In this document: in pieces, positions 18,528 through 32,540 of the stretch
How the letters are laid out: each line of letters starts with the position of its first letter
Position numbering within the stretch: position 1 is the first letter of the stretch
Source: Thermoleophilaceae bacterium
GTDB lineage: Bacteria > Actinomycetota > Thermoleophilia > Solirubrobacterales > Thermoleophilaceae
Direction: 5' to 3'
Length of the DNA stretch: 32,540 nucleotides
NCBI GenBank assembly: GCA_016929195.1
Contig: JAFGJG010000009.1
Coordinates: 1-32,540, forward strand
The notes under the pieces: generated by a model
Told to the model about the DNA's origin: nothing
Seen by the model: the letters and a program-made list of their open reading frames with translations, nothing else
Database searches by the model: none
Translations under genes and position numbers: made by a program

Positions 18528-18600
18528 GGGCCGGTAGCTCAGCGGTTAGAGCAGCGGACTCATAATCCGTCGGTCCCAGGTTCGAATCCTGGCCGGCCCA
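18528..18600 (+). tRNA. tRNA-Met (CAT); integration site of the adjacent element
   Basis: 73-nt cloverleaf: acceptor GGGCCGG/CCGGCCC with discriminator A; D arm GCTC/GAGC; anticodon stem GCGGA/TCCGT with loop CTCATAA and anticodon CAT; T arm CCAGG/CCTGG with loop TTCGAAT. CAT could also mark tRNA-Ile2 (lysidine-modified); elongator Met is the default call. TAGGAT at 18514-18519 ends 8 nt before the first base, a likely -10. Bases 18558-18600 are repeated exactly at 22576-22618, so the gene was rebuilt by an integrating element. Confidence 0.93.
18558..18600 (+). repeat. attL, left copy of the 43-bp repeat
   Basis: It starts with ACTCATAATCCG and ends with GGCCGGCCCA, covering the anticodon loop, T arm and acceptor 3' strand. 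Identity with 22576-22618 is complete, and the flanks diverge immediately (C versus T at the right side). Confidence 0.9.
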
Positions 18601-18623
18601 CCTAAAACGCCTGCAAAGCAGCG

Positions 18624-18638
18624 GGTCCGGGGCGGACC
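18624..18638. promoter_or_regulatory. GGTCCG-ggg-CGGACC dyad just inside attL
   Basis: Perfect 6-bp arms around GGG, 24 bases inside the element. It could be the tRNA transcript terminator, a directionality-factor or repressor site. No partner protein is identifiable. Confidence 0.3.
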
Positions 18639-18650
18639 AGGGCTCGGGCG

Positions 18651-18668
18651 TCTCCCCGATATCTCCCC
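18651..18668 (+). repeat. Paired TCTCCCC direct repeats (possible integrase arm sites, left)
   Basis: TCTCCCC occurs at 18651-18657 and 18662-18668, an 11-base period, about 50 bases inside attL. A similar pair occurs at the right end of the element. Short paired direct repeats flanking the core are typical of arm-type sites bound by the N-terminal domain of tyrosine integrases. The repeats are seen; the role is inferred. Confidence 0.4.
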
Positions 18669-18704
18669 AAACGAATGGTCACGCGGGGGCGTAGCTTCGG
18701 TCGC

Positions 18705-18890
18705 ATGGCCACCGCCACGCACGGCTACTTCCCCCGCACGGCCGGCAGGTACCGCACCCGCTGCACCCACTGGTCTGGGTGTGGCGAGCAGGCGGAGCCT
18801 GGCTGGGCGTTCTGCGAGACGCACCACGGCGAGGTGGTGGCGCGCGGCGAGCGCCTGAAGAACACCCCGAATTCGTGGAGGAACCGATGA
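18705..18890 (+). CDS. Element gene 1: small zinc-knuckle-like protein
   Basis: 61-residue protein from ATG 18705, chosen because TAGCTT (18692-18697) ends 7 nt before it; an upstream ATG at 18675 would add 10 residues. Cys20, Cys26, Cys37 and His40/41 (RCTHWSGCGEQ, then WAFCETHHGE) form a likely single zinc site. The N-terminus is aromatic/basic. Function is unknown; small zinc proteins of this sort are frequent in actinophage early regions. It is the first gene of a tightly overlapping set and overlaps the next ATG by 4 bases. Confidence 0.55.
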   Translation: MATATHGYFPRTAGRYRTRCTHWSGCGEQAEPGWAFCETHHGEVVARGERLKNTPNSWRNR

Positions 18891-19120
18891 GTGATGACCT
18901 GGTGCGCCAGCTGCGCGACGCCGGTTATGAAGATGAGGCCGACTCGATCGAGCGCAGGGGGCTGATCGGCCAGCTGCGCGAGGCTGGGCGCGACGACCTG
19001 GCCGACCGGCTCGGCAGCCGGGAGGCAGACGACGGAGGGCCGGCTTCGGACGAGGACGCAGAGCTCACCGCTGTGGTGGCGGCGCTCGACAGAGATGTTC
19101 CGGACTGGCGGCGGCGATGA
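18887..19120 (+). CDS. Element gene 2: acidic protein with two internal repeats
   Basis: 77 residues, strongly charged. Two adjacent copies of an about 18-residue helical unit are visible: RQLRDAGYEDEADSIERR and GQLREAGRDDLADRLGSR, sharing QLR(D/E)AG-x-x-D-x-AD. The C-terminus is acidic and ends VPDWRRR. GTGGAGG, 5 bases before the ATG, is a good SD, and the ATG overlaps the gene 1 stop as ATGA. No family is recognised. The repeat could form a small helical adaptor. Confidence 0.55.
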   Translation: MSDDLVRQLRDAGYEDEADSIERRGLIGQLREAGRDDLADRLGSREADDGGPASDEDAELTAVVAALDRDVPDWRRR

Positions 19121-19362
19121 GGCGCAACCCGTTCAATGTGAACGCGAACCCGCCGGGCGCCGGTTCGCACATGTCTGACCGGTCCAGCTTCGACGCCCGG
19201 GCGCTGTGGGGCACCGACCCGAAGGACGAGGCCGACGAGGCCCCCGCTTGGGCCGAGGGCATGCACCTCGTGCCGGCGGAAACGACCGACGACTTGATCC
19301 AGGCCATGTATCCGGGCGCGAAGCCATACCGGCCAAGGGGAGGCGAGAACGATGGGACGTAA
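19117..19362 (+). CDS. Element gene 3: unknown, NPFN-type N-terminus
   Basis: 81 residues, starting RRNPFNVNANPPGAG, with a Trp/Asp/Glu-rich middle (RALWGTDPKDEADE, AWAEGMHLVP) and a C-terminal DDLIQAMYPGAKPYRP. No domain is recognised. Its ATG overlaps the gene 2 stop by 4 bases. A nearly identical 40-base copy of the 5' coding segment (36 of 40 matches) lies outside the element at 24262-24301, which marks related mobile DNA there. Confidence 0.5.
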   Translation: MRRNPFNVNANPPGAGSHMSDRSSFDARALWGTDPKDEADEAPAWAEGMHLVPAETTDDLIQAMYPGAKPYRPRGGENDGT

Positions 19363-19984
19363 GACCGCTTGGGAGGAACGGGCGACGCTCGAAGAGAAGG
19401 CCGTAGCCGACGCTGGTCGCGCGAGGGACGCGGCGCTGCGGCTCGAGGCTGGCAGGGCGAAGGCCAAGGACGCCCACGACCGGCTCGTCGCCGCGCACCG
19501 CGACGGCAACGACAGCCGCGAGATCGAACGCGCCAAGCAGGCGATCCGCAAGACGGGCGAGGACCTCCAGTTCCTCAAGGCCGAAGCCCAAGGATTGGCG
19601 CAGCGGGCCGCCGCCAAGCAGCAGATCGCCAACTTCGACGTCACAGACAACAGCCGGCTGCTCGACGAGCTCAGGCCCGGGGCCACAGAGGTCCGCGACC
19701 GGCTGGCGGCCGCGTTCGCCGCCCTCCCCGAGATCGCCGCCGAATACGACCGCTACGTCACCAAGGCATCAGCGCTCGTGTCGGCGGCAGGAAAGTCGCC
19801 GAGGGAGGAGGGCCCGGACGGCCACGGCCTCGACCAGCTACTCCAAGCGATCCGACAGCAGCTCAACACCCGCGAGATCCCCGTGCCGCTGCCGCACGGT
19901 CGGCACAGCGCCTGGGTCGAGCAGCAGAACCAGGCAGCCGCCAAGGCCCAGGCCCGCGAATCAGCGACGGCGAGGGCCGCCTGA
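19352..19984 (+). CDS. Element gene 4: coiled-coil protein
   Basis: 210 residues. Residues about 5-110 are a long Ala/Glu/Arg/Lys heptad-like helix (EERATLEEKAVADAG, REIERAKQAIRKTGEDL, FLKAEAQGLAQRAAAK). A second helical part follows (LLDELRPGATEVRDRLAAAF), then a proline-containing break (EIPVPLPHGRHSAW) and an Ala/Gln-rich tail. No enzyme motif is visible. It overlaps gene 3 by 11 bases and ends one base into the HNH start. Coiled-coil proteins beside HNH nucleases occur in phage packaging/scaffold regions and in defence loci; neither can be chosen here. Confidence 0.55.
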   Translation: MGRKTAWEERATLEEKAVADAGRARDAALRLEAGRAKAKDAHDRLVAAHRDGNDSREIERAKQAIRKTGEDLQFLKAEAQGLAQRAAAKQQIANFDVTDNSRLLDELRPGATEVRDRLAAAFAALPEIAAEYDRYVTKASALVSAAGKSPREEGPDGHGLDQLLQAIRQQLNTREIPVPLPHGRHSAWVEQQNQAAAKAQARESATARAA

Positions 19985-20307
19985 TGCCCTTCCGGCGGTG
20001 CATGGAGTGTCGGCAGCTGGTGCCGCTCGGGGAGTGGCAGCAGCACCGCAACAGCCACCGCGGGAACGACAACCGTGGCTGGTCGGCCCGCAACCGGTCA
20101 GACCAACGCAGATTCCGCACCGCCGTCCTCAAACGCGACGGCAACCAATGCAGAGCTCTCCTGGAGAGTGGTCAACGCTGCCCGGTCCGGGTCGGGCTGG
20201 TCGCACATCACACGGTTCCCCTGCACCGTGGCGGCGACTTCGATCCGGCCGGCGGCGTGACCCTCTGCGAACACCACCACCGAGAGGTGGACACCTATGC
20301 CCGGTGA
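19984..20307 (+). CDS. Element gene 5: HNH endonuclease with N-terminal zinc finger
   Basis: 107 residues. An N-terminal Cys6-X2-Cys9-X11-His21-X3-His25 finger (CMECRQL...HRNSH) precedes an HNH core: LKRDGNQC, then VAHHTVPLHRGGDF (His75-His76), GGVTLCEHHHRE. The Cys56, Cys66, Cys95 and His98 positions suggest a structural zinc in the nuclease. HNH nucleases nick or cut DNA using one metal ion; those next to phage att sites often assist packaging or homing. The ATG overlaps the gene 4 stop by one base (TGATG), so synthesis is coupled. The convergent NTF2-like gene ends 4 bases beyond. Confidence 0.8.
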   Translation: MPFRRCMECRQLVPLGEWQQHRNSHRGNDNRGWSARNRSDQRRFRTAVLKRDGNQCRALLESGQRCPVRVGLVAHHTVPLHRGGDFDPAGGVTLCEHHHREVDTYAR

Positions 20308-20311
20308 CGTC

Positions 20312-20707
20312 CTACGCGGCCGCTTCCGTCGCCGCGGCAACACTCGTGAAGGTCTCGACCTTCGCGGCCAGGCCGTCGTCATCGATTGTCCACATCCAAA
20401 CCATGGACGTGGACAACGCGATGTCGCTGCCGCTCCCGTGCGTGACCAATCTCGCCGGTGCGATCACCTTGTTGCCGACGGCGATGAACTCCCCGGGCTC
20501 GACGCGGAGGTCTACGGCCTCAACCTGGCTCTCCCACACGGCCCGGAGCTCCTCCTTCCCGCGTACGACAGGCGAGTCGGCCTCAGCTTGCGACAGGAAC
20601 CGCTCCCACGTGATGTCGTCGCTCACGGCGGCCAGCGCGGCGTCGAAGTCACGCCGGTTAAAGGCGTCGATGCCTTCTCGGATCAGCTCGATGTTCCGCT
20701 CAGACAT
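20312..20707 (-). CDS. SnoaL/NTF2-like protein (single domain), inside the element
   Basis: 131 residues with the usual layout: N-terminal SERNIELIREGIDAFNRRDFDAAL, DDITWE, VRGKEELRAVWESQ, then a curved sheet (IAVGNKVIAPARLVT, SMVWMWTIDDDGLAAKVETF). NTF2-like folds form a hydrophobic pocket and act as isomerases, hydrolases, cyclases or binding proteins; no catalytic residue can be assigned here. It lacks the C-terminal AVGLS tag of its chromosomal relatives. The start is ATG 20707, preceded by GATACT at 7 nt, the hexamer common to the paralogues. The overlapping + strand frame is rejected. Confidence 0.8.
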   Translation of the reverse strand: MSERNIELIREGIDAFNRRDFDAALAAVSDDITWERFLSQAEADSPVVRGKEELRAVWESQVEAVDLRVEPGEFIAVGNKVIAPARLVTHGSGSDIALSTSMVWMWTIDDDGLAAKVETFTSVAAATEAAA

Positions 20708-20714
20708 CCGGCGC

Positions 20715-20720
20715 AGTATC
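20715..20720 (-). promoter_or_regulatory. GATACT element 7 nt before the element NTF2-like gene
   Basis: Reads GATACT on the minus strand, ending 7 nt before the ATG. The same hexamer precedes four other NTF2-like genes here at 7-9 nt. Inferred -10 of a leaderless promoter. Bases 20825-21002 further upstream hold no gene I can support. Confidence 0.5.
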
Positions 20721-21002
20721 GCGGACAGGGCGCCCGTGCCGGCCGCCGGGACTGGCACCCGGCGATGTTGGGAGTGGCGGACGCGGGCTACCAATCCGAT
20801 CGACAGACGGTCAGCAATGCTTGAGGCGATTCCCCTGACCGACTGGCACCCGTTCCACGAAGGGGGGCTACGCCAGCCACACCAGCTGTACGTCCTGGCA
20901 CCCGCCCCTACCTGTCCTCACGACAGAGCAGCCACTAAGCGTTTTTCAGCTGGCCCCGGGACGTTCGAACCAAACCCCAACGAGGATGATCGCTCGCGAG
21001 TC

Positions 21003-21540
21003 CTAGTCGTTGCTTCTCTGCCGGACGCAGCGGACCATGGCGTGCCGGTGGGTGACCGGGGTTCCGTACCAAGCCCGGAATGCGGCGGGGCCGTGTGCGG
21101 CCCGGATGAAGAGGCATTCCTGGCGGGCTTGGTGGATCACGTAGCTGACGCAGTCACCCTGGGTTTGGAAGGCGGGGTAGTTCCGCCAGCCGCCGTTCTT
21201 GCAGTCGCCCTTCGACACGGGGAATGGCGTCGCGTCCACGATCACGATGTCCCCGCTGCGCACCTCACTGCCGGCCCTGAAGTCGGTGCAATCGGGCTCA
21301 GCGCCCGACGTGTTCAGATGGTCGAGGGTGTAGCGATCGGGCTGACCAGCGCCGCCGTCGGTCAAGTCCCACTCCCCGGTCCAGCCCACCAGGCTCGGAT
21401 CGGTGCTCTCGACGATGCGGAAGCCGACAGCCGCCGTGTTGGCTTCGACGCGCAAGCAGGTGACCTCCGATCGGTGCCGGAATTCTCCAGGCCCGACGAG
21501 CACGACGGAGCCGCCCGGGTCTTCTCCCGAGGCTAACGCC
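21003..21540 (-). pseudogene. Truncated secreted-protein gene (GWxNYxxFxxQGDCVSYV type)
   Basis: The open frame from GTG 21503 encodes 166 residues with VTCLRVEANTAAVGF, GQPDRYTLDHLN and DCKNGGWRNYPAFQTQGDCVSYV, a pattern I recall from short secreted actinobacterial proteins. Those normally start with a signal peptide. Here the similarity continues upstream of the GTG (GEDPGGSVV, to about 21540) with no in-frame start, and stops where the integrase gene begins. The C-terminus also runs on beyond the usual end, just after the QGDC motif, into an unrelated Arg/His-rich tail. Both ends therefore look broken, probably by assembly of the element. Family memory is the weaker part of this call. Confidence 0.5.
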
Positions 21541-21547
21541 CAGGCAA

Positions 21548-22540
21548 TTGGGCGAAAAGAAGGCCGATCTGGTGCGTTTCAGGGAGTGGCTGCGGTACGT
21601 CGAACACGACCGGGGCCGGAAGCGTTCGACGGTCCGCGACTTCCGCAACGCGGTCAGCGGGCGGCTGGTGCCCGAGTTTGGCGACGCGCGTGTGGAGGAC
21701 GTGGACGTGGAGCGGGTCGATCGTTGGCGGTCCCAACTACTTGCGGAGGCGGGTCTGAGCCCTCGCACCGTGAACAAGCTGCTGGTGATCCTCAGCGGGA
21801 TCTTCAAACGGGCCGGGCGGGTGTACGGGCTCGGGAGGAACCCGGTTGCCCAGGTGGACCGCCAGCCCCAGAAACGGTCGGACGACTTCCGGACCCTCAC
21901 GGCCGGCGAGGTTGTGCAGCTGGCAGCCGCGGCCGAGTCGGACCAGGACGCCGTGATGTTCGTCGTAGCAGCGTTCACCGGGTTGCGGCTCGGGGAGCTG
22001 CGGGCGTTGACGTGGGGGGACGTGGACTTCACGAAGGCGCTGCTTCACGTCCGCCGGTCGTACACGAAGGGTGCGGAGGGGCTGCCGAAGTCGGGCAAGG
22101 TGCGGAGCGTCCCTCTGATCGACCGGGCGGCGCGCGCCCTGGACGGGCTGAGCCGCCGCGACCACTTCACGGGCCGCGACGACTTGGTGTTCTGCACGTC
22201 GACCGGCGGGTTCGTGGACGACACGAAGCTGCGCCGCCGCTACTACGCGGCGCTTCAGCGCGCCGGACTGCACAGGATCCGCTTCCACGACCTGCGGCAC
22301 GTGTTCGGCACGATCGCGGTGCAGGCGTTCCCGCTCAGCGACGTCAAGGCTTACATGGGCCACAAGGACATTTCGACGACGATGGTCTACGTCCACCACG
22401 TCCCGCAGCACGAAGCCGCCGACCGACTCGGGCAGGTGGTGGAGGCGGCGACCGACCCGTTCGCCGGGAACGTCTCCCCAAATGTCTCCCGAACTGAGGA
22501 GAACTCAGCAGTTCTGAGCGCAACCAGGTCTGCGGTCTAG
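21548..22540 (+). CDS. int: Tyrosine-type site-specific integrase
   Basis: 330-residue phage-type integrase that would insert the element at tRNA-Met. It has a SAM-like core-binding domain (about 5-105: FREWLRYVEHDRGRKRST, SPRTVNKLLVILSGIF) and a catalytic domain with Arg147 (TGLRLGEL), Lys184, His247 and Arg250 (FHDLRH), His272 (MGHKDIST) and Tyr281 (VYVHH). All nucleophile and activator residues are present. The proposed start is TTG 21548; GTG 21570 is an alternative. No separate arm-binding N-terminal domain is obvious, but residues 1-20 are short and basic. The C-terminal tail NVSPNVSRTEE is encoded by the TCTCCC repeat pair. It ends 35 bases before attR. Confidence 0.92.
   Translation: MGEKKADLVRFREWLRYVEHDRGRKRSTVRDFRNAVSGRLVPEFGDARVEDVDVERVDRWRSQLLAEAGLSPRTVNKLLVILSGIFKRAGRVYGLGRNPVAQVDRQPQKRSDDFRTLTAGEVVQLAAAAESDQDAVMFVVAAFTGLRLGELRALTWGDVDFTKALLHVRRSYTKGAEGLPKSGKVRSVPLIDRAARALDGLSRRDHFTGRDDLVFCTSTGGFVDDTKLRRRYYAALQRAGLHRIRFHDLRHVFGTIAVQAFPLSDVKAYMGHKDISTTMVYVHHVPQHEAADRLGQVVEAATDPFAGNVSPNVSRTEENSAVLSATRSAV
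22473..22491 (+). repeat. Paired TCTCCC-C/G repeats in the integrase 3' end (possible arm sites, right)
   Basis: TCTCCCC at 22473-22479 and TCTCCCG at 22485-22491, period 12 bases, about 85-100 bases inside attR. They mirror the pair next to attL and encode the near-repeat NVSP-NVSR of the integrase tail. Role as integrase-binding sites is inferred. Confidence 0.4.
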
Positions 22541-22575
22541 AGCCGAATCTGACTGAGGACCGGCGGATCTAGAGA

Positions 22576-22618
22576 ACTCATAATCCGTCGGTCCCAGGTT
22601 CGAATCCTGGCCGGCCCA
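22576..22618 (+). repeat. attR, right copy of the 43-bp repeat
   Basis: Exact copy of 18558-18600. The 5' half of the tRNA is missing here, so it is not a functional tRNA. The following 225 bases (22619-22843) show no gene. Confidence 0.9.
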
Positions 22619-24019: not shown

Positions 24020-24169
24020 GGGTGCCAACGGTGGCTATGCCTGTGCAATGGCTGCTCGGTGGCTCGACGGGCCTGCTGAGGCGACGCTGCGCACTAAGCC
24101 GCCGCTGGGTCGATCGCTCAGTGTTGAGGAGAACACCGAAGCGGTCGTCCCGCAGCGCGCTGTTCTACG

Positions 24170-24301
24170 TGTCCCGAACCGTGTCCCCAACTCGGCAGAT
24201 CCAACCGTGGGCAGCTCGGCCTGACCCGTCGTAACTGAGCCAACTCGACCGAATTCCTGGTAGGCGCAACCCGTTCAACCCGAACGAGAACCCGCCGGGC
24301 G
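24170..24301 (+). other. Debris related to the integrative element
   Basis: Two traces are visible in the 304-base gap between marR and the next gene. At 24170-24188 TGTCCCG and TGTCCCC repeat with a 12-base period and encode RVPNRVPN, resembling the repeat-encoded tail of the integrase; the frame stops at 24222-24224. At 24262-24301 a 40-base segment matches the 5' coding part of element gene 3 (19120-19159) at 36 of 40 positions. Between them CGAATTCCTGG resembles the tRNA T-loop CGAATCCTGG with an extra T. This suggests the scar of a second, related element. Confidence 0.5.
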
Positions 24302-24323
24302 GCGCTGAGCGTTTTCGGGCTGG

Positions 24324-24728
24324 CTACTCCGACAGGCCCACGGCTTCGAGGGCCTCTTGGCGATCCATGAAGATCCGGACTCGGCTGATCTTGCCTCCGA
24401 CGAGGTCGTAGACGTTCGTTATCGGTGTTGCGTCCGTGACCTGCAGGCCGCTTGTTCGCCCGCTGCCGGTGACCCGCAGGAAGGCGAGTACGCGGCCCGG
24501 GCGAATCGTTTCCGCTCGCTCGAGCTCGAGTCGGAAGTCGGGACCAACGTCCTCGAGGTCCGAGAACCACCGCCGGATACCCGATGGGCCGTCGTACACG
24601 CCGCCGATGCTGGCCAATGGTGTGTGGATCTCGATGTCCGGCGTGCAACACGCCAAGTAGCCGTCGAGGTCCCGGGCATTGACGGCCCCGACCGCTCGCT
24701 CGATGACTTCCGCGTTCTCCCGCGACAT
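24324..24728 (-). CDS. SnoaL/NTF2-like protein (single domain, AVGLS tag)
   Basis: 134 residues from ATG 24728. Typical layout: SRENAEVIERAVGAVNARDLDGYLA, CCTPDIEIHTP, VYDGPSGIRRWFSDLEDV, then strands with SGLQVTDATPITNVYDL and GGKISRVRIFMD, ending EALEAVGLSE. The conserved Asp/Glu and aromatic residues lining the pocket fit polyketide-cyclase-like or steroid-isomerase-like folds, but activity is unknown. GATACT ends 9 nt before the ATG. Longer upstream frame (to 24941) is rejected as the paralogues all start at the MS(R/Q)xN motif. Confidence 0.82.
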   Translation of the reverse strand: MSRENAEVIERAVGAVNARDLDGYLACCTPDIEIHTPLASIGGVYDGPSGIRRWFSDLEDVGPDFRLELERAETIRPGRVLAFLRVTGSGRTSGLQVTDATPITNVYDLVGGKISRVRIFMDRQEALEAVGLSE

Positions 24729-24737
24729 GGCCCGCCG

Positions 24738-24743
24738 AGTATC
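24738..24743 (-). promoter_or_regulatory. GATACT element 9 nt before NTF2-like gene
   Basis: Minus-strand GATACT followed by CGGCGGGCC and the ATG. Context GGGGATACTCGG matches the other copies. Inferred leaderless -10. Confidence 0.5.
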
Positions 24744-24802
24744 CCCGAGGGGGACCAGCCGCACCAGTCCCGCACGCCAGCGCGTGTCGGCGAGGGGGTG
24801 AC

Positions 24803-24901
24803 TCAGCCGGGCTGGACCAGCAGCGTCGTCAGGCCGCCGATCACGAACAGCACCATGAACACAGCAAGCGCGATCCACACGATACGAGCTGGGAGCGTCA
24901 T
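24803..24901 (-). CDS. Putative 32-residue single-pass membrane protein
   Basis: ATG 24901 opens a 32-residue frame: TLPARIVW, then a 20-residue hydrophobic stretch (IALAVFMVLFVIGGLTTLL) and a short tail VQPG. The composition is what a small membrane peptide looks like and is unusual for a chance GC-rich frame. GAGGAT lies 6 nt before the ATG and could serve as -10 or partial SD. It sits between two NTF2-like genes on the same strand. No homologue is known to me. Confidence 0.45.
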   Translation of the reverse strand: MTLPARIVWIALAVFMVLFVIGGLTTLLVQPG

Positions 24902-24954: not shown

Positions 24955-25812
24955 TCAAGCGCTCTTCGGCGGTTGTTCCGACAGCCCCACGACTTCGAGG
25001 GCCTCGTCCGGATCGGAGAAGCCCTTTCGGTAGATCACCTTGCCGTCACGGAGCCTGTAGAGCTCCGCATGGCGTTCGTCCATCTGGAGGCCGCTCTCGC
25101 TGCGACCGGTCTCGCGGAAGATCAGGATGACCTGGTCGTCGCCGGCGTCGATGAATCGTTCTGGCTCGATCTTCCAGTCGTCCCACTGCTCCGCCCACCG
25201 CATGGCGTGGTCCACGAGTGCCTCGTGCCCGCGGGCGATCGCCCCGTCAGGAAGATTCGTTCCGTCCCACTCGATGTCGGGATCACAGAACGAGAGCCCG
25301 CTCAGCGGGTCGTCCCCGAGGAAGGCATCCCACATCCGGCGCACGATCTCGACGTTCTCCTGCGACATAGCCTGCTCCGACAGGCCCACGGCCTCGGGGC
25401 CGTCGCCGCTGAGTCCGAGCGCGTGAAGCGCACCGTTCGCGGTCAGGTGATCCTCGACTCGGATGAGTCGTCCGTGGCGAAGCCAGCAACAGTGGTAGAG
25501 GTCGCCGTCAATCGCGATGCCGCTCAGGCGTCCCTCGGCCTCGAGGTGTCCATGGACAAGGACGCGATCATCGCCAACCGCCCGCGCGTCCTTGACCACG
25601 TACTGGTAACGCTTCCAAGCCGCCCGGTACTCGCTGAGGAAGTCGACTATCTCGTCGCGTCCGTGGCAGGGCCTCGCCTCCGGGAACTTGCGGACGGGGT
25701 AGTAGTCGCCATCCGAATCCCAGAATCGATCCGCGGTCGCGATGAGCCGTTCGGAGTTGTCGGGCCACTCGCCGTAGTACCGCCGCACCGCATCCACGTT
25801 CGCTTGCGACAT
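24955..25812 (-). CDS. Two-domain SnoaL/NTF2-like fusion protein
   Basis: 285 residues. Domain 1 (about 1-135) begins SQANVDAVRRYYGEW and ends ANGALHALGLS; then GPEAVGLSEQA leads straight into MSQENVEIVRRMWDAF, the start motif of domain 2 (about 149-285), which ends DEALEVVGLSEQPPKSA. The internal Met plus the preceding C-terminal tag show that two tandem genes were joined in frame. Pocket-type residues differ between domains: domain 1 is rich in His/Tyr (GDLYHCCWLRHGR), domain 2 has SGLQMDERHAELYRLRDGKV. The start is ATG 25812 with GATACT 9 nt upstream. Function unknown; internal re-initiation at the second Met is possible. Confidence 0.82.
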   Translation of the reverse strand: MSQANVDAVRRYYGEWPDNSERLIATADRFWDSDGDYYPVRKFPEARPCHGRDEIVDFLSEYRAAWKRYQYVVKDARAVGDDRVLVHGHLEAEGRLSGIAIDGDLYHCCWLRHGRLIRVEDHLTANGALHALGLSGDGPEAVGLSEQAMSQENVEIVRRMWDAFLGDDPLSGLSFCDPDIEWDGTNLPDGAIARGHEALVDHAMRWAEQWDDWKIEPERFIDAGDDQVILIFRETGRSESGLQMDERHAELYRLRDGKVIYRKGFSDPDEALEVVGLSEQPPKSA

Positions 25813-25821
25813 CGCCTCCCG

Positions 25822-25827
25822 AGTATC
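25822..25827 (-). promoter_or_regulatory. GATACT element 9 nt before the fused NTF2-like gene
   Basis: GATACT, then CGGGAGGCG and ATG. The gap contains GGGAGG, so an SD is possible here too. Read as the common NTF2-family -10. Confidence 0.5.
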
Positions 25828-25888
25828 CCGCCTGGGCTGGCGAGCCGCGACCACCCGCCGGTACCCCGCCTCACACAGACACCGCTTC

Positions 25889-26185
25889 TTGGCCATTTCT
25901 GGAGAGGGGACAGGGGAGGCCCGACCGGCCGCAACCCGTGTCACCCCGCGGTACTCGCTGTTCACCCCCAAGACCCTCAAGATCCTCGCGGCCGTCACGC
26001 TCGTGTTGCTCGCCGCCGGCGCCGCGATCGGCTCGGACAACGACGTGCTATGGACCCTCGACGACGTCGTCTTCTTCGCGCTCATACTCAGCGTGCTGGC
26101 GCTGATCGTCCTGACCGTGGGGACGCTCCGTGAAGTCGCGCACGACCTCGCGAAACGCGTCCATGCAGCCGACTGGCCGATCTGA
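25889..26185 (+). CDS. Small two-helix membrane protein
   Basis: 98 residues from TTG 25889, the only start available before the hydrophobic core. Two transmembrane segments are clear: LKILAAVTLVLLAAGAAIG (about 29-48) and VVFFALILSVLALIVLTVG (about 59-78), followed by a basic cytosolic tail (LREVAHDLAKRVH). The first 25 residues are hydrophilic. No domain is recognised. It diverges from the fused NTF2-like gene. The unusual TTG start lowers confidence in the N-terminus, not in the coding call. Confidence 0.55.
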   Translation: MAISGEGTGEARPAATRVTPRYSLFTPKTLKILAAVTLVLLAAGAAIGSDNDVLWTLDDVVFFALILSVLALIVLTVGTLREVAHDLAKRVHAADWPI

Positions 26186-27374: not shown

Positions 27375-27539
27375 GTGGAGCTTCACTCTTGGGCAGGTGC
27401 GGCATTGATCGTCGCCATGCTGGGCGGCGGAAGCATCGAGCTGCTTCTCAATCGGCGGAAGCAGCGAGACCGCCGGCCCGCCCGGGCGCGGCCGGAGCGG
27501 GGTCTCAGCCGCCGGCCGGGCCTGAGCCGCGGTCCCTAG
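27375..27539 (+). CDS. Putative 54-residue membrane protein
   Basis: GTG 27375 gives 54 residues: a short hydrophobic helix (HSWAGAALIVAMLGGGSIELLL) followed by a very basic tail (NRRKQRDRRPARARPERG). The topology would put the tail inside. A 7-nt gap to TACGGT and the exact CTAG stop shared with the NTF2-like fusion on the other strand support it as a gene, but it is too small to confirm by eye. Confidence 0.45.
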   Translation: MELHSWAGAALIVAMLGGGSIELLLNRRKQRDRRPARARPERGLSRRPGLSRGP

Positions 27540-28348
27540 GCGTTCTCCGCGTCCAGCAGGTGCGACAGGCCGACGGCGGCCAAGGCCTTCTCCCGCTGGC
27601 CGAAGCCCTGGCCCCGGACGATCACTCCGTCACGCAGCGTCCAGAGCTCCCCGATCTGCACCTCCACCTCCGCGCTGCTGCCGGCGGGCCGCCTTCGGAT
27701 CGTCACGAACACGACGACGTGGTCGCCGGCGGAGAAGATCCGCTCGGGCTCGTAGACGGTCGCCTCGAACGGAGTCTCCAGGTCCTCGACGAACCGCCGG
27801 ACCGCATCGGGGCCCCGGTAGACGCCGGCGCGCGGGTGGCGCGGATCCGTCTCCCACTCGATGTCCGGGCCCATCAACCCGAGGGCCTGATCCCAGTCGC
27901 CGCTGTTGAACGCGTCGTAGAGCGTCCGGACAACAGCCTCGTTGTCCGGTGACAGCCCAGCGACCGCCAGGGCCTCCTCCCAGGACGGGTAGAAGCGGGC
28001 CCTGCCGATCTTGCCGTCGCGGAAGTCCCAGGCGACGCTCCCCATCGGCTGGCGGACCGGCATCCCGGAGCCACTGATGCGGCCCGAGAGCTCCCCGAGC
28101 CAGACGACCCGCTCGCCGCAGTCGCGGATCTCGGCGGTGACGACCGTGAATTCCTCGAAGCTGTCGCTCCAGCCCGCCATCAGCTCACGGATCCCGTCGT
28201 GGCCCCGGAAACCGTCGGCGCTGTCCGGCGAATCCGGGAACGGAAACCAGATGACGTCTTCCGTATAGAACGCGAGCAGGGTCTCGACTCCCTCGGAGTT
28301 CCAGGCCTCGACCGCCCGCGTCAACGTGTCGACGTTCGCCTGTGACAC
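27536..28348 (-). CDS. Two-domain SnoaL/NTF2-like fusion protein
   Basis: 270 residues from GTG 28348. Domain 1 (1-about 133): SQANVDTLTRAVEAWNSEGVE, YTEDVIWFPF, FRGHDGIRELMAGW, AWDFRDGKIGRARFYPSWEEALAVAGLS. Domain 2 begins immediately with PDNEAVVRTLYDAFNSGDWD, then MGPDIEWE, VYRGPDAVRRFVEDL, and ends REKALAAVGLSHLLDAENA. The AVAGLS of domain 1 is the hinge, as in the other fusions. It starts 3 bases after the stop of the upstream NTF2-like fusion, so the two form an operon and no separate promoter element is seen. Its stop shares CTAG with the convergent small protein. Function unknown. Confidence 0.83.
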   Translation of the reverse strand: MSQANVDTLTRAVEAWNSEGVETLLAFYTEDVIWFPFPDSPDSADGFRGHDGIRELMAGWSDSFEEFTVVTAEIRDCGERVVWLGELSGRISGSGMPVRQPMGSVAWDFRDGKIGRARFYPSWEEALAVAGLSPDNEAVVRTLYDAFNSGDWDQALGLMGPDIEWETDPRHPRAGVYRGPDAVRRFVEDLETPFEATVYEPERIFSAGDHVVVFVTIRRRPAGSSAEVEVQIGELWTLRDGVIVRGQGFGQREKALAAVGLSHLLDAENA

Positions 28349-29206: not shown

Positions 29207-30064
29207 ATGACCGTCGAGCTGGAAGTCAGGGACCGCAAGGCCTACGTCACGCTCAACCGGCCGGAACGCCTGAACGCCATCACCGCGGAGATGGCGCGTG
29301 ACCTCGCCGACGTCGTGAGGCAGGCGAACGAGGACGACCGGGTCCGCGTCCTGATCGTCCAGGGAGCCGGCCGGGCCTTCAGCGCCGGCTACGACCTGAA
29401 GGTCTACGCCGAGCAGGGGGAGGCGCACCAGCCACCCGTCTGGGATCCGATCAAGGACTACCTCGGGATGAAGGCCAACACGGACAGCTTCTTCTCGCTG
29501 TGGCGGTCACCGAAGCCCACGATCGCCAAGGTCCGCGGGTACGCCGTCGCGGGCGGCAGCGACATCGCGCTGTCCTGCGACCTGATCGTGATGGCGGAGG
29601 ACGCCCGCATCGGCTACATGCCCGCCCGGGTGTGGGGGTGCCCGACGACGGCGATGTGGGTGTACCGGCTCGGACCGGAGCGCGCCAAGCGCATGCTCCT
29701 GACCGGCGACACGATCGACGGCCGGCAGGCGCGCGACTGGGGGCTCGTGATCGACGCGGTGCCCGAGGCCGAGCTGGACGCGGCCGTCGAGCGGCTGGCA
29801 GACCGGATGGCCGGCGTGCCGATCAACCAGCTCGTCATGCAGAAGCTGATGATCAACCAGGCGCTCGACAACATGGGCCTGCAGTCCACTCAGACGATCG
29901 CCACGCTGTTCGACGGCATCACGCGCCACTCGCCGGAGGGCCGGTGGTTCGTGGAGTTCGCCGCCGAGCACGGCTTCGACGAGGCGGTGCGCTGGCGCGA
30001 CGAGGGACGCTTCATCCCGGACGGCGGCGGACCGATCCCGACCGAGGAAGAGCTGCGCGACTAG
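29207..30064 (+). CDS. Crotonase-superfamily protein lacking both usual catalytic Glu
   Basis: 285-residue enoyl-CoA hydratase/isomerase-like protein. The CoA/oxyanion regions are typical: LNRPERLNAI, GRAFSAGYDLK, VAGGSDIALSCDLI. However, where hydratases carry GQPE and then an Ala-Met-Glu helix, this reads YMPARVWG and ERAKRMLLTGD. By eye the two catalytic glutamates are Ala and Arg. It should still bind an acyl-CoA thioester and form the oxyanion hole, but plain hydration is doubtful; isomerase, hydrolase or dehalogenase-type chemistry is possible. The start ATG 29207 is divergent from the NTF2-like operon; its stop shares CTAG with the next NTF2-like gene. Confidence 0.88.
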   Translation: MTVELEVRDRKAYVTLNRPERLNAITAEMARDLADVVRQANEDDRVRVLIVQGAGRAFSAGYDLKVYAEQGEAHQPPVWDPIKDYLGMKANTDSFFSLWRSPKPTIAKVRGYAVAGGSDIALSCDLIVMAEDARIGYMPARVWGCPTTAMWVYRLGPERAKRMLLTGDTIDGRQARDWGLVIDAVPEAELDAAVERLADRMAGVPINQLVMQKLMINQALDNMGLQSTQTIATLFDGITRHSPEGRWFVEFAAEHGFDEAVRWRDEGRFIPDGGGPIPTEEELRD

Positions 30065-30453
30065 GTCAGGCCCACGGCCTCGAGGGCCTGACCGCGCTCC
30101 TGGTACATGCTCATGTTCGCCAGCCTGCCGCCGCGGACCGTCCAGACGTGCGTGACGCGGGCGGACACCTCGATGTCGTCACGCCCCCGCATGTGGAGGG
30201 TCACGGGTACGACGACGTGGTCGCCGGCGTCGATGAACTCGTGCGGCTCAAAGCGGCGCGACTCCCAGGCCGCCGCGAATCCCTCCCAGAAACGCTGCAC
30301 CTGACCGGCGGAGTAGACGCCGCGGAATGGCCCCTCGGCACGCGACATGTCGAGCTCGAAGTCCGGGGTTGCCGTGGCGAGGATGGACTGCCAGTCACTC
30401 CGGTTCCATGACTGGAGGGCGGCCTGGACGAGCTCGACGTTCGCGCGGGACAC
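30061..30453 (-). CDS. SnoaL/NTF2-like protein (single domain, AVGLT tag)
   Basis: 130 residues from GTG 30453. SRANVELVQAALQSWNRSDWQ, ATPDFELDMS, FRGVYSAGQVQRFWEGFAAAW, HEFIDAGDHVVVPVTLHMRGRDD, VTHVWTVRGGRLANMSMYQ, ending GQALEAVGLT. Full-length single-domain member of the local family. GATACT ends 7 nt before the GTG, within the tail of the upstream hydrolase region. The convergent crotonase gene ends on the same CTAG. Function unknown. Confidence 0.83.
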   Translation of the reverse strand: MSRANVELVQAALQSWNRSDWQSILATATPDFELDMSRAEGPFRGVYSAGQVQRFWEGFAAAWESRRFEPHEFIDAGDHVVVPVTLHMRGRDDIEVSARVTHVWTVRGGRLANMSMYQERGQALEAVGLT

Positions 30454-31445: not shown

Positions 31446-31503
31446 GGGACCCGGAGCGGGACGCGAACTTCGCGCTGCCAACCCGCGGTTCGCGCCGGGT
31501 CCC
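31446..31503. terminator. Long bulged stem-loop between NTF2-like gene and lipoprotein hydrolase
   Basis: GGGACCCGG (31446-31454) pairs perfectly with CCGGGTCCC (31495-31503), and inside it CGCGAAC (31462-31468) pairs with GTTCGCG (31488-31494). Seven bases (AGCGGGA) bulge on the left only. The last base overlaps the NTF2-like stop codon (31505-31503), so it lies at that gene's 3' end and upstream of the hydrolase. There is no T-run, so a terminator or mRNA-stabilising hairpin is inferred. Confidence 0.45.
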
Positions 31504-31895
31504 TACAGAGTCTCCTCGAGCTCTTCCCAGGTCGCGAAGAACGTGATCCGGCGGATCTCGCCCTCCAGCACCTCGCAGCGCGCGCAGGCCTCCTGGATCA
31601 GCTCGAGGCTCGTGGTGCGGCCGCGGGCGACCATCCGGAACGCGATGCCCACCAGATCGTCCCCGTACGTGCGCAGCTCGTGCGGCTCGATTCGGACCTC
31701 GTCCATGGCCTCGTAGAAGGAGTCGAACCAGCGCTGCACCCCCGCCGGGCCGCGGTAGGTGTCGGGCTCCGACGCCAGCTCGGGCGGGGTGATCATCACG
31801 AACTCCTCGTGGACGTAGGGCAGCATCGCCTCGACGCCGCCCTCGGCGAGCGCCCGGAAGGCGTCCCGGACCACCGCTTCGACATCGCCGCTCAC
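31503..31895 (-). CDS. SnoaL/NTF2-like protein (single domain, diverged tail)
   Basis: 130 residues from GTG 31895. SGDVEAVVRDAFRALAEGGVEAMLPYV, HEEFVMITPPE, TYRGPAGVQRWFDSFYEAM, VRIEPHELRTYGDDLVGIAFRMVARGRTT, ending TWEELEETL. The tail replaces EALEAVGLS but keeps the same position. Cys pair ACARCEV in the last strand is unusual in this set. CATACT ends 6 nt before the start. A frame extending to 32135 is rejected because it would overlap the divergent secreted-protein gene. Confidence 0.8.
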   Translation of the reverse strand: MSGDVEAVVRDAFRALAEGGVEAMLPYVHEEFVMITPPELASEPDTYRGPAGVQRWFDSFYEAMDEVRIEPHELRTYGDDLVGIAFRMVARGRTTSLELIQEACARCEVLEGEIRRITFFATWEELEETL

Positions 31896-31901
31896 GGCAC
31901 G

Positions 31902-31924
31902 AGTATGTCCTGCTCGTATAGGTT
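31902..31924. promoter_or_regulatory. Compact divergent -10-like pair
   Basis: Minus strand CATACT (31907-31902) ends 6 nt before the NTF2-like GTG. Plus strand TAGGTT (31919-31924) ends 8 nt before ATG 31933. Only 37 bases separate the two start codons, so both promoters are face-to-face and there is no room for a 5' leader. Confidence 0.45.
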
Positions 31925-31932
31925 GCGCTCGG

Positions 31933-32540
31933 ATGAGGAGAGGGCCGGCCCTAGCCGCCGCGGCACTCGTGTCGCTCACAGCGAGCGCGTCCGCGCCCGC
32001 CGCCACGCCCATCCCGCAGGATCCGTCGGAGCTCGCCGGGCTCGAGCTGTTCGCCGGTGGCGCGGCGACGCCCCACCGCGTGAAGGCGCCACAGCCTCCG
32101 CGCCATCCGTTCATGGCGCCGAACGGACGCAGCAACGTCCACGACGATGCCTACCAGACGGACACGTACAGGTACGCGGGCCCGCTCGGGCGCGACATGC
32201 GCAGCTACTCGCAGGCCTTCGGCGGCGTCGGGAGCTGCGGCATCACGATCGTCTTCGACAAGCGGGGTCGGCTGCTGACGACGTGCATCTCGGCCACGAC
32301 GGTCGACCTCCGCCTGCTCGACCCGGACACGCTCGACACGATCGCGTCGCACCCGCTGCCGCCGCGCGTCATCCCGCCGGGGGTCAGCCCGTTCCAGACG
32401 CCCGGCGGCGCCTACTTCTACCTCGACCAGAAGGACCGCGCGGTCGTGTCGGTGAACCGGCAGGTATTCGTGGTGGCCGTCGAGGGGAACACGCTCCGGC
32501 GCGTCCGTACCTACGACCTCGCGAAGCACCTGCCGGCGGA
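31933..32540 (+). CDS. Secreted protein, N-terminal part (cut by window edge)
   Basis: Frame open to the right edge, 202 residues seen. A signal peptide (RRGPALAAAALVSLTASASAPAA) precedes a Pro-rich spacer (KAPQPPRHPFMAPNGRSNVHDD). The body has SCGITIVFDKRGRLLTTCISATTVDLRLLDPDTLDTIASHPLPPR, GGAYFYLDQKDRAVVSVNRQ: repeated beta strands with D-x-x-G/T turns as in beta-propellers or PQQ-like domains. Two cysteines are close in sequence. Function and full length are not visible. Confidence 0.75.
   Translation, partial: MRRGPALAAAALVSLTASASAPAATPIPQDPSELAGLELFAGGAATPHRVKAPQPPRHPFMAPNGRSNVHDDAYQTDTYRYAGPLGRDMRSYSQAFGGVGSCGITIVFDKRGRLLTTCISATTVDLRLLDPDTLDTIASHPLPPRVIPPGVSPFQTPGGAYFYLDQKDRAVVSVNRQVFVVAVEGNTLRRVRTYDLAKHLPA

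Follow-up and report, generated by a model that had tools for sequence, protein, structure and literature searches.

A five-gene operon in a 4-kb tRNA-Met island of a Thermoleophilaceae bacterium, a candidate minimal phage satellite

The tRNA-Met island and its gene content

The window considered here is a stretch of 32,540 nucleotides of contig JAFGJG010000009.1 (assembly GCA_016929195.1), in which an intact tRNA-Met gene is followed by five small overlapping genes, two genes of host type on the opposite strand, and a tyrosine integrase gene. Since the 3' half of the tRNA is repeated at 22571-22618, an island of 4,018 bp can be delimited at 18553-22618, bounds that the earlier note on this DNA had not set. 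Its features are the following:

18528..18602, + strand: tRNA-Met (CAT), intact, integration target (ARAGORN; Rfam RF00005, 75.5 bits)
18553..18600, + strand: attL, 3' half of the tRNA-Met (48-nt repeat, 96%, 43 nt perfect)
18675..18890, + strand: gene 1 (g1), Zn-knuckle protein, 71 aa (61 aa if the ATG at 18705 is used)
18887..19120, + strand: gene 2 (g2), two-repeat helical protein, 77 aa
19117..19362, + strand: gene 3 (g3), acidic NPFN protein, 81 aa
19352..19984, + strand: gene 4 (g4), helical hairpin or coiled coil, 210 aa
19984..20307, + strand: gene 5 (g5), zinc-finger HNH protein, 107 aa (phrog_589/phrog_144)
20312..20758, - strand: SnoaL-like protein, host-type cargo (PF12680, 3e-13)
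21003..21503, - strand: hypothetical protein, host-type cargo (relative near the same tRNA-Met in G002:C172)
21548..22540, + strand: tyrosine integrase (PF00589, 4e-27; R, HxxRH and GH...Y motifs)
22571..22618, + strand: attR, partial tRNA copy (48-nt repeat of attL)

The cassette begins about 75-105 nt downstream of the tRNA-Met, g1 having two candidate ATGs (18675 or 18705), and at the other end the integrase gene abuts attR, which starts 30 nt past its end. The catalytic motifs of the integrase are intact, and the N-terminal domain of about 100 aa found in most of its relatives is missing, an absence shared by the integrase of a related island described below (G082). In G002:C172, relatives of the SnoaL-like and hypothetical genes, which here separate cassette and integrase, lie close to the same tRNA-Met. 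An empty-site comparison found no extended match for the right flank in the relatives fetched. The island is thus an integrated element with its own integrase and att repeats, and the absence of virion structural genes proposed earlier is borne out between attL and attR by open reading frames and by Pfam and PHROG profiles. The same means detected no gene for a terminase, a capsid protein, a primase or AlpA in 18603-22570. The sole candidate for redirecting helper packaging is the packaging-type HNH gene g5, accompanied by neither TerS nor a recognised packaging site. A phrog_9 search of the host assembly (3.46 Mb, 97.6% complete) returned no TerL, and hence no resident helper prophage was found.

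Genes reading as SnoaL-like recur around the element as well as inside it: besides 20312-20758, the only one tested against Pfam, they lie at 24324-24878, 24955-26085, 27536-28348, 30061-30453 and 31503-32114.

An operon of overlapping genes

Genes g1 to g5 lie on one strand and overlap by 4 (ATGA), 4 (ATGA), 11 and 1 (TGATG) nt, exactly as first described. When the region was shuffled 1000 times with a first-order Markov model and both strands were scanned for chains of ATG-initiated ORFs of at least 60 aa overlapping by 0-12 nt, the longest chain contained three members (in 11 of the 1000 shuffles), compared with five in the native sequence. The reality of these genes is further indicated by tandem relatives of g2 and g4 in a same-genus MAG (metagenome-assembled genome), by the recurrence of the start of g3 at 24262-24304, and by the HNH profile matches of g5. 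We therefore regard g1-g5 as confirmed overlapping genes, whose translation as one unit, as originally suggested, is supported by their arrangement. Scans for promoters (limited to a sigma-70 pattern) and for terminators found nothing.

The five product descriptions given at the outset broadly hold, with the qualification that the HNH motif of g5 carries a glycine in place of its central asparagine. No family was found for g1-g4 in Pfam, PHROGs, PADLOC or NCBIfam, which agrees with the initial view that the cassette matches no system that can be named; nor did these profile searches reveal the clear homology to phage head or terminase proteins that would have spoken against it. The Zn-knuckle motif of g1 is CTHWSGCGEQAEPGWAFCETH, and among all ORFs fetched the pattern C..GC....G..C..H occurs only in g1 and in the N-termini of two HNH proteins. 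The resemblance of g1 to the N-terminus of some HNH proteins is thus suggestive; it is supportive rather than independent, because the pattern was derived from those same sequences. Phage matches to g1 (E 0.1-0.6) were dismissed as noise.

The product of g2 contains a double helical repeat, with a 35-nt internal repeat in the DNA, and that of g3 is acidic with an NPFN motif; matches to g3 in relatives were at E 0.002 or worse and are not claimed as homologues. For g4, structure prediction gives a long helical hairpin or coiled coil (mean pLDDT 70, pTM 0.38), and this low pTM, like the pLDDT of 50 for the predicted fold of g5, made both models unusable for fold searches. We do not claim g4 as a homologue of the coiled coils in related islands (G003, G047, G031 and G026), since both hhalign and a comparison of an HMM with shuffled sequences were negative. 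Its pairwise match to the coiled coil of G003:C6 has an E-value of 0.001, and one chance coiled-coil match scored better. A match of G153 to the g4 profile was judged to be due to chance, its surroundings being ordinary chromosomal genes. Viral contigs searched with g4, the g4 profile, g5 and the integrase gave no matches, and searches of phages and plasmids with g2-g4 gave nothing relevant.

An HNH protein related to those of phage packaging regions

HNH proteins have been described as components of phage packaging (PMC5304195), and g5 is an HNH protein by its profile matches (phrog_589, 1e-10; phrog_144, 6.6e-10). Its architecture combines a CxxC...HxxxxH finger with an HNH motif. By tblastn, the phage sequences closest to it are HNH genes of the Streptomyces Arquatrovirinae phages Andris and BartholomewSD (35-40% identity across 70-81% of g5); these genes precede TerS and TerL near one end of the phage genome. 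Compared with these packaging HNH proteins, g5 has an extra N-terminal C2H2-type finger, a glycine for the motif asparagine, and no terminase gene beside it. No gene of that kind adjoins g5 anywhere in the window, whereas one is present beside its relatives in G064, G002:C250 and the Streptomyces phages. In alignments the histidines of the motif and the cysteine ligands are kept, so the set of His/Asn/His and Zn ligands that characterizes packaging HNH proteins is incomplete in g5 by the asparagine. In the HNH protein of phage GVE2, the N109A mutation lowers nicking activity by 60% (PMC5304195), and by analogy the activity of g5 may be reduced.

Conservation of the cassette and a neighbouring relic

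Among the relatives searched, the complete g1-g5 set was found in the present genome only, and the proposal of an undescribed system is not supported in the form of a conserved five-gene set. Lack of conservation, which had been named as grounds for rejecting it, is nevertheless not total: what is conserved is g2 and g4 with a nuclease, within a single MAG, plus a relic of g3. The MAG is a same-genus Thermoleophilaceae genome (G002, JACCSF010000088.1), in which locus C60 carries g2-like and g4-like stretches in tandem, frameshifted (E 1.6e-6 for the g4 relative), followed by an endonuclease VII-like gene. The order g2, g4, nuclease is therefore common to both loci and the type of nuclease differs. 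Two further matches lie in the window beyond attR:

24168..24206, + strand: second-element relic (90% over 39 nt, score 58 against a shuffle maximum of 34)
24262..24304, + strand: relic of the g3 start, outside the element (88% over 43 nt, score 61 against a shuffle maximum of 33)

The first of them matches a sequence of G003:C3 that precedes an att copy by about 65 nt, and 24168-24304 as a whole looks like the relic of a related sister element, with a part resembling an integrase end or att arm and the start of g3. In G003:C3 (L056, 3590-4300), a same-type tRNA-Met att copy adjoins a pair of genes that by eye resemble HicA/HicB.

Related islands in Thermoleophilia

The syntenic tRNA-Met of G018:C6 (L055, 2875-6915) holds a different island of 4.0 kb, in the order tRNA, Zn protein, NrS-1-type primase, integrase (in parts) and attR, and in G014 the same tRNA-Met is accompanied by an integrase and an AlpA-like gene. 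In G082, a 3.3-kb island at a tRNA-Arg is bounded by 43-nt perfect repeats and contains an HNH gene and a TerL nuclease domain (PF20441); its integrase, 58-59% identical to that of the present island, likewise abuts attR, in the same layout. A larger tRNA-Arg island with 44-nt repeats and likewise a related integrase (G047:C1, L100, 6938-16352; 9.4 kb) encodes TerS, TerL, a small acidic protein, a coiled coil of 226 aa, a RepA-like ATPase and AlpA, and no capsid gene was recognised in it. TerS, TerL, a small acidic protein and a coiled coil are also found with a related integrase in G031, as is TerL in G106.

G003:C6 (L141, 1-10285; 10.2 kb), a satellite-like element that forms a whole contig by itself and is flanked on either side by 36-nt tRNA-type repeats, is possibly an excised circle. 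Its HNH and coiled-coil genes overlap by 4 nt, and it further encodes AlpA, a RepA-like ATPase, a MazF-like toxin and an ORF resembling a tape measure gene; terminase and capsid genes were not found. An AlpA-type regulator together with a replication gene is present in G047, G031 and G003:C6. Elsewhere, an HNH gene adjoins TerS or TerL in G064:C45 and in the same-genus G002:C250, where HNH is followed by TerL; contig ends truncate both loci, which could be prophages. Where both ends of an island are available, reading of the ORFs, profile searches with selected ORFs and a single portal query recognised neither a capsid nor a portal gene.

Satellite, relic or defence island?

How should such a small island be understood? 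The initial proposal had left a choice between phage packaging or helper interference on the one hand and defence on the other. The comparison favours the former, because the HNH genes that most resemble g5 precede phage terminase genes and because related small tRNA islands contain terminase and HNH genes, while defence is left without a match or a context. As the sister islands hold phage DNA-packaging genes and few or no other virus genes, the island probably represents a tiny and perhaps decayed parasite of phages, not a defence system. Given its layout and those of its sister islands, the best explanation appears to be a minimal tailed-phage satellite, with g1-g5 as a helper-exploitation operon diverting helper packaging, to which we would assign about an even chance.

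What the data show are the limits of the island, its integrase and operon, the kinship of g5 with other HNH proteins, and related islands that have terminase or HNH genes without recognised capsid genes; from these we infer dependence on a helper, excision, packaging and each step between proteins. Upon infection by a helper, the integrase would excise the island, whose operon might be transcribed from the promoter of the upstream tRNA-Met or, once excised, by read-through from the integrase gene over attP. The g5 protein, with g1 as a detached Zn-knuckle protein, would act as an HNH accessory of the helper terminase and direct end cleavage or packaging onto island DNA, and g4, g2 and g3 might form a helical adaptor or scaffold docking on the terminase or capsid, replication and virion proteins being supplied by the helper. 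Several observations count against such a satellite: the absence of terminase, AlpA, primase and a recognised packaging site, the loss of the g5 asparagine, the missing N-terminal domain of the integrase, a host genome in which phrog_9 finds no TerL, and a kinship of g4 to satellite coiled coils that is not established.

Some of these also count in favour of the main rival, a decayed remnant of a prophage or larger satellite that has lost its terminase, replication and regulatory genes and become immobile, which we consider possible, if rather unlikely. The gap in the integrase and in the HNH motif would fit it, as would the two host-type genes in the middle of the island, the frameshifted relative in G002 and the second-element relic next door. 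Decay is opposed by five intact and overlapping ORFs, an att core perfect over 43 nt, intact catalytic motifs in the integrase, and the recurrence of islands of 3-4 kb with the same layout (G082, G018).

That the cassette is instead an anti-phage defence operon carried as cargo, with a coiled-coil sensor and an HNH effector, seems improbable. tRNA islands frequently hold defence genes, and a nuclease with a coiled coil inside such an island invites the idea; yet the best PADLOC match (0.0044, 14 bits) is not above noise, no ATPase, sensor or second effector is present, the closest HNH relatives belong to phage packaging regions, and g5 lacks its asparagine. This reading has no positive support. 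More improbable still is a reading in which g5, a free-standing endonuclease of homing type, was inserted downstream of small genes unrelated to it. HNH genes are mobile, and the G002 cassette has another nuclease, of endonuclease VII type, at the same position. The 1-nt translational overlap of g4 and g5 argues against such an insertion, as do the presence of a nuclease after g4 in both loci and the HNH genes adjoining a coiled coil or terminase in sister islands.

Comparison with known satellites

PICIs, cos-type SaPIs and cf-PICIs resemble the island in being small integrated elements with a tyrosine integrase and att repeats, and they use helper packaging, in which (for the cos type) HNH proteins reportedly participate. 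The island differs from them in its size of only 4 kb, in having no AlpA, primase, TerS or capsid gene, and in its Actinomycetota host, outside the families described. cf-PICIs encode TerS, TerL and HNH (PMC10690885); the capsid and terminase genes that define them are absent from the island by Pfam and PHROG. The features that define PICIs and PICMIs, an AlpA-type regulator and a replication gene next to the integrase, are likewise absent from 18603-22570. By these defining genes, the island is not a PICI, PICMI or cf-PICI. The PICMIs of Vibrionaceae have a reduced gene content without capsid remodelling genes (PMC10803314), a reduction that the island shares, but they sit next to fis with three core excision and replication proteins, whereas the island has a tRNA-Met and an integrase only. 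MulchRoom and MiniFlayer, satellites of Streptomyces phages and thus of Actinomycetota, have HNH and terminase genes and also portal and capsid genes (PMC10690885), the last two being absent here. In the part of the literature on actinobacterial and Streptomyces satellites that was covered, the only Actinomycetota description is of capsid-bearing elements (PMC10690885), and with this partial coverage the novelty of the island family is provisional.

A wider proposal, which we advance tentatively and consider doubtful, is that Thermoleophilia harbor a distinct lineage of tRNA satellites of 3-10 kb, in which packaging genes (HNH, TerS, TerL or its nuclease domain) and a dedicated coiled-coil protein replace capsid genes, the present island being the most reduced and diverting helper packaging with HNH and coiled coil alone. 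If islands of this size travel in helper virions, they would define the minimal requirements of a satellite and widen the range of satellites to include a deep-branching actinobacterial class, and the repeated pairing of a coiled-coil gene with a nuclease or terminase gene would be a candidate class of packaging adaptor. Should the island be a relic, it would still document clearly that a single tRNA-Met has served repeatedly as an integration site.
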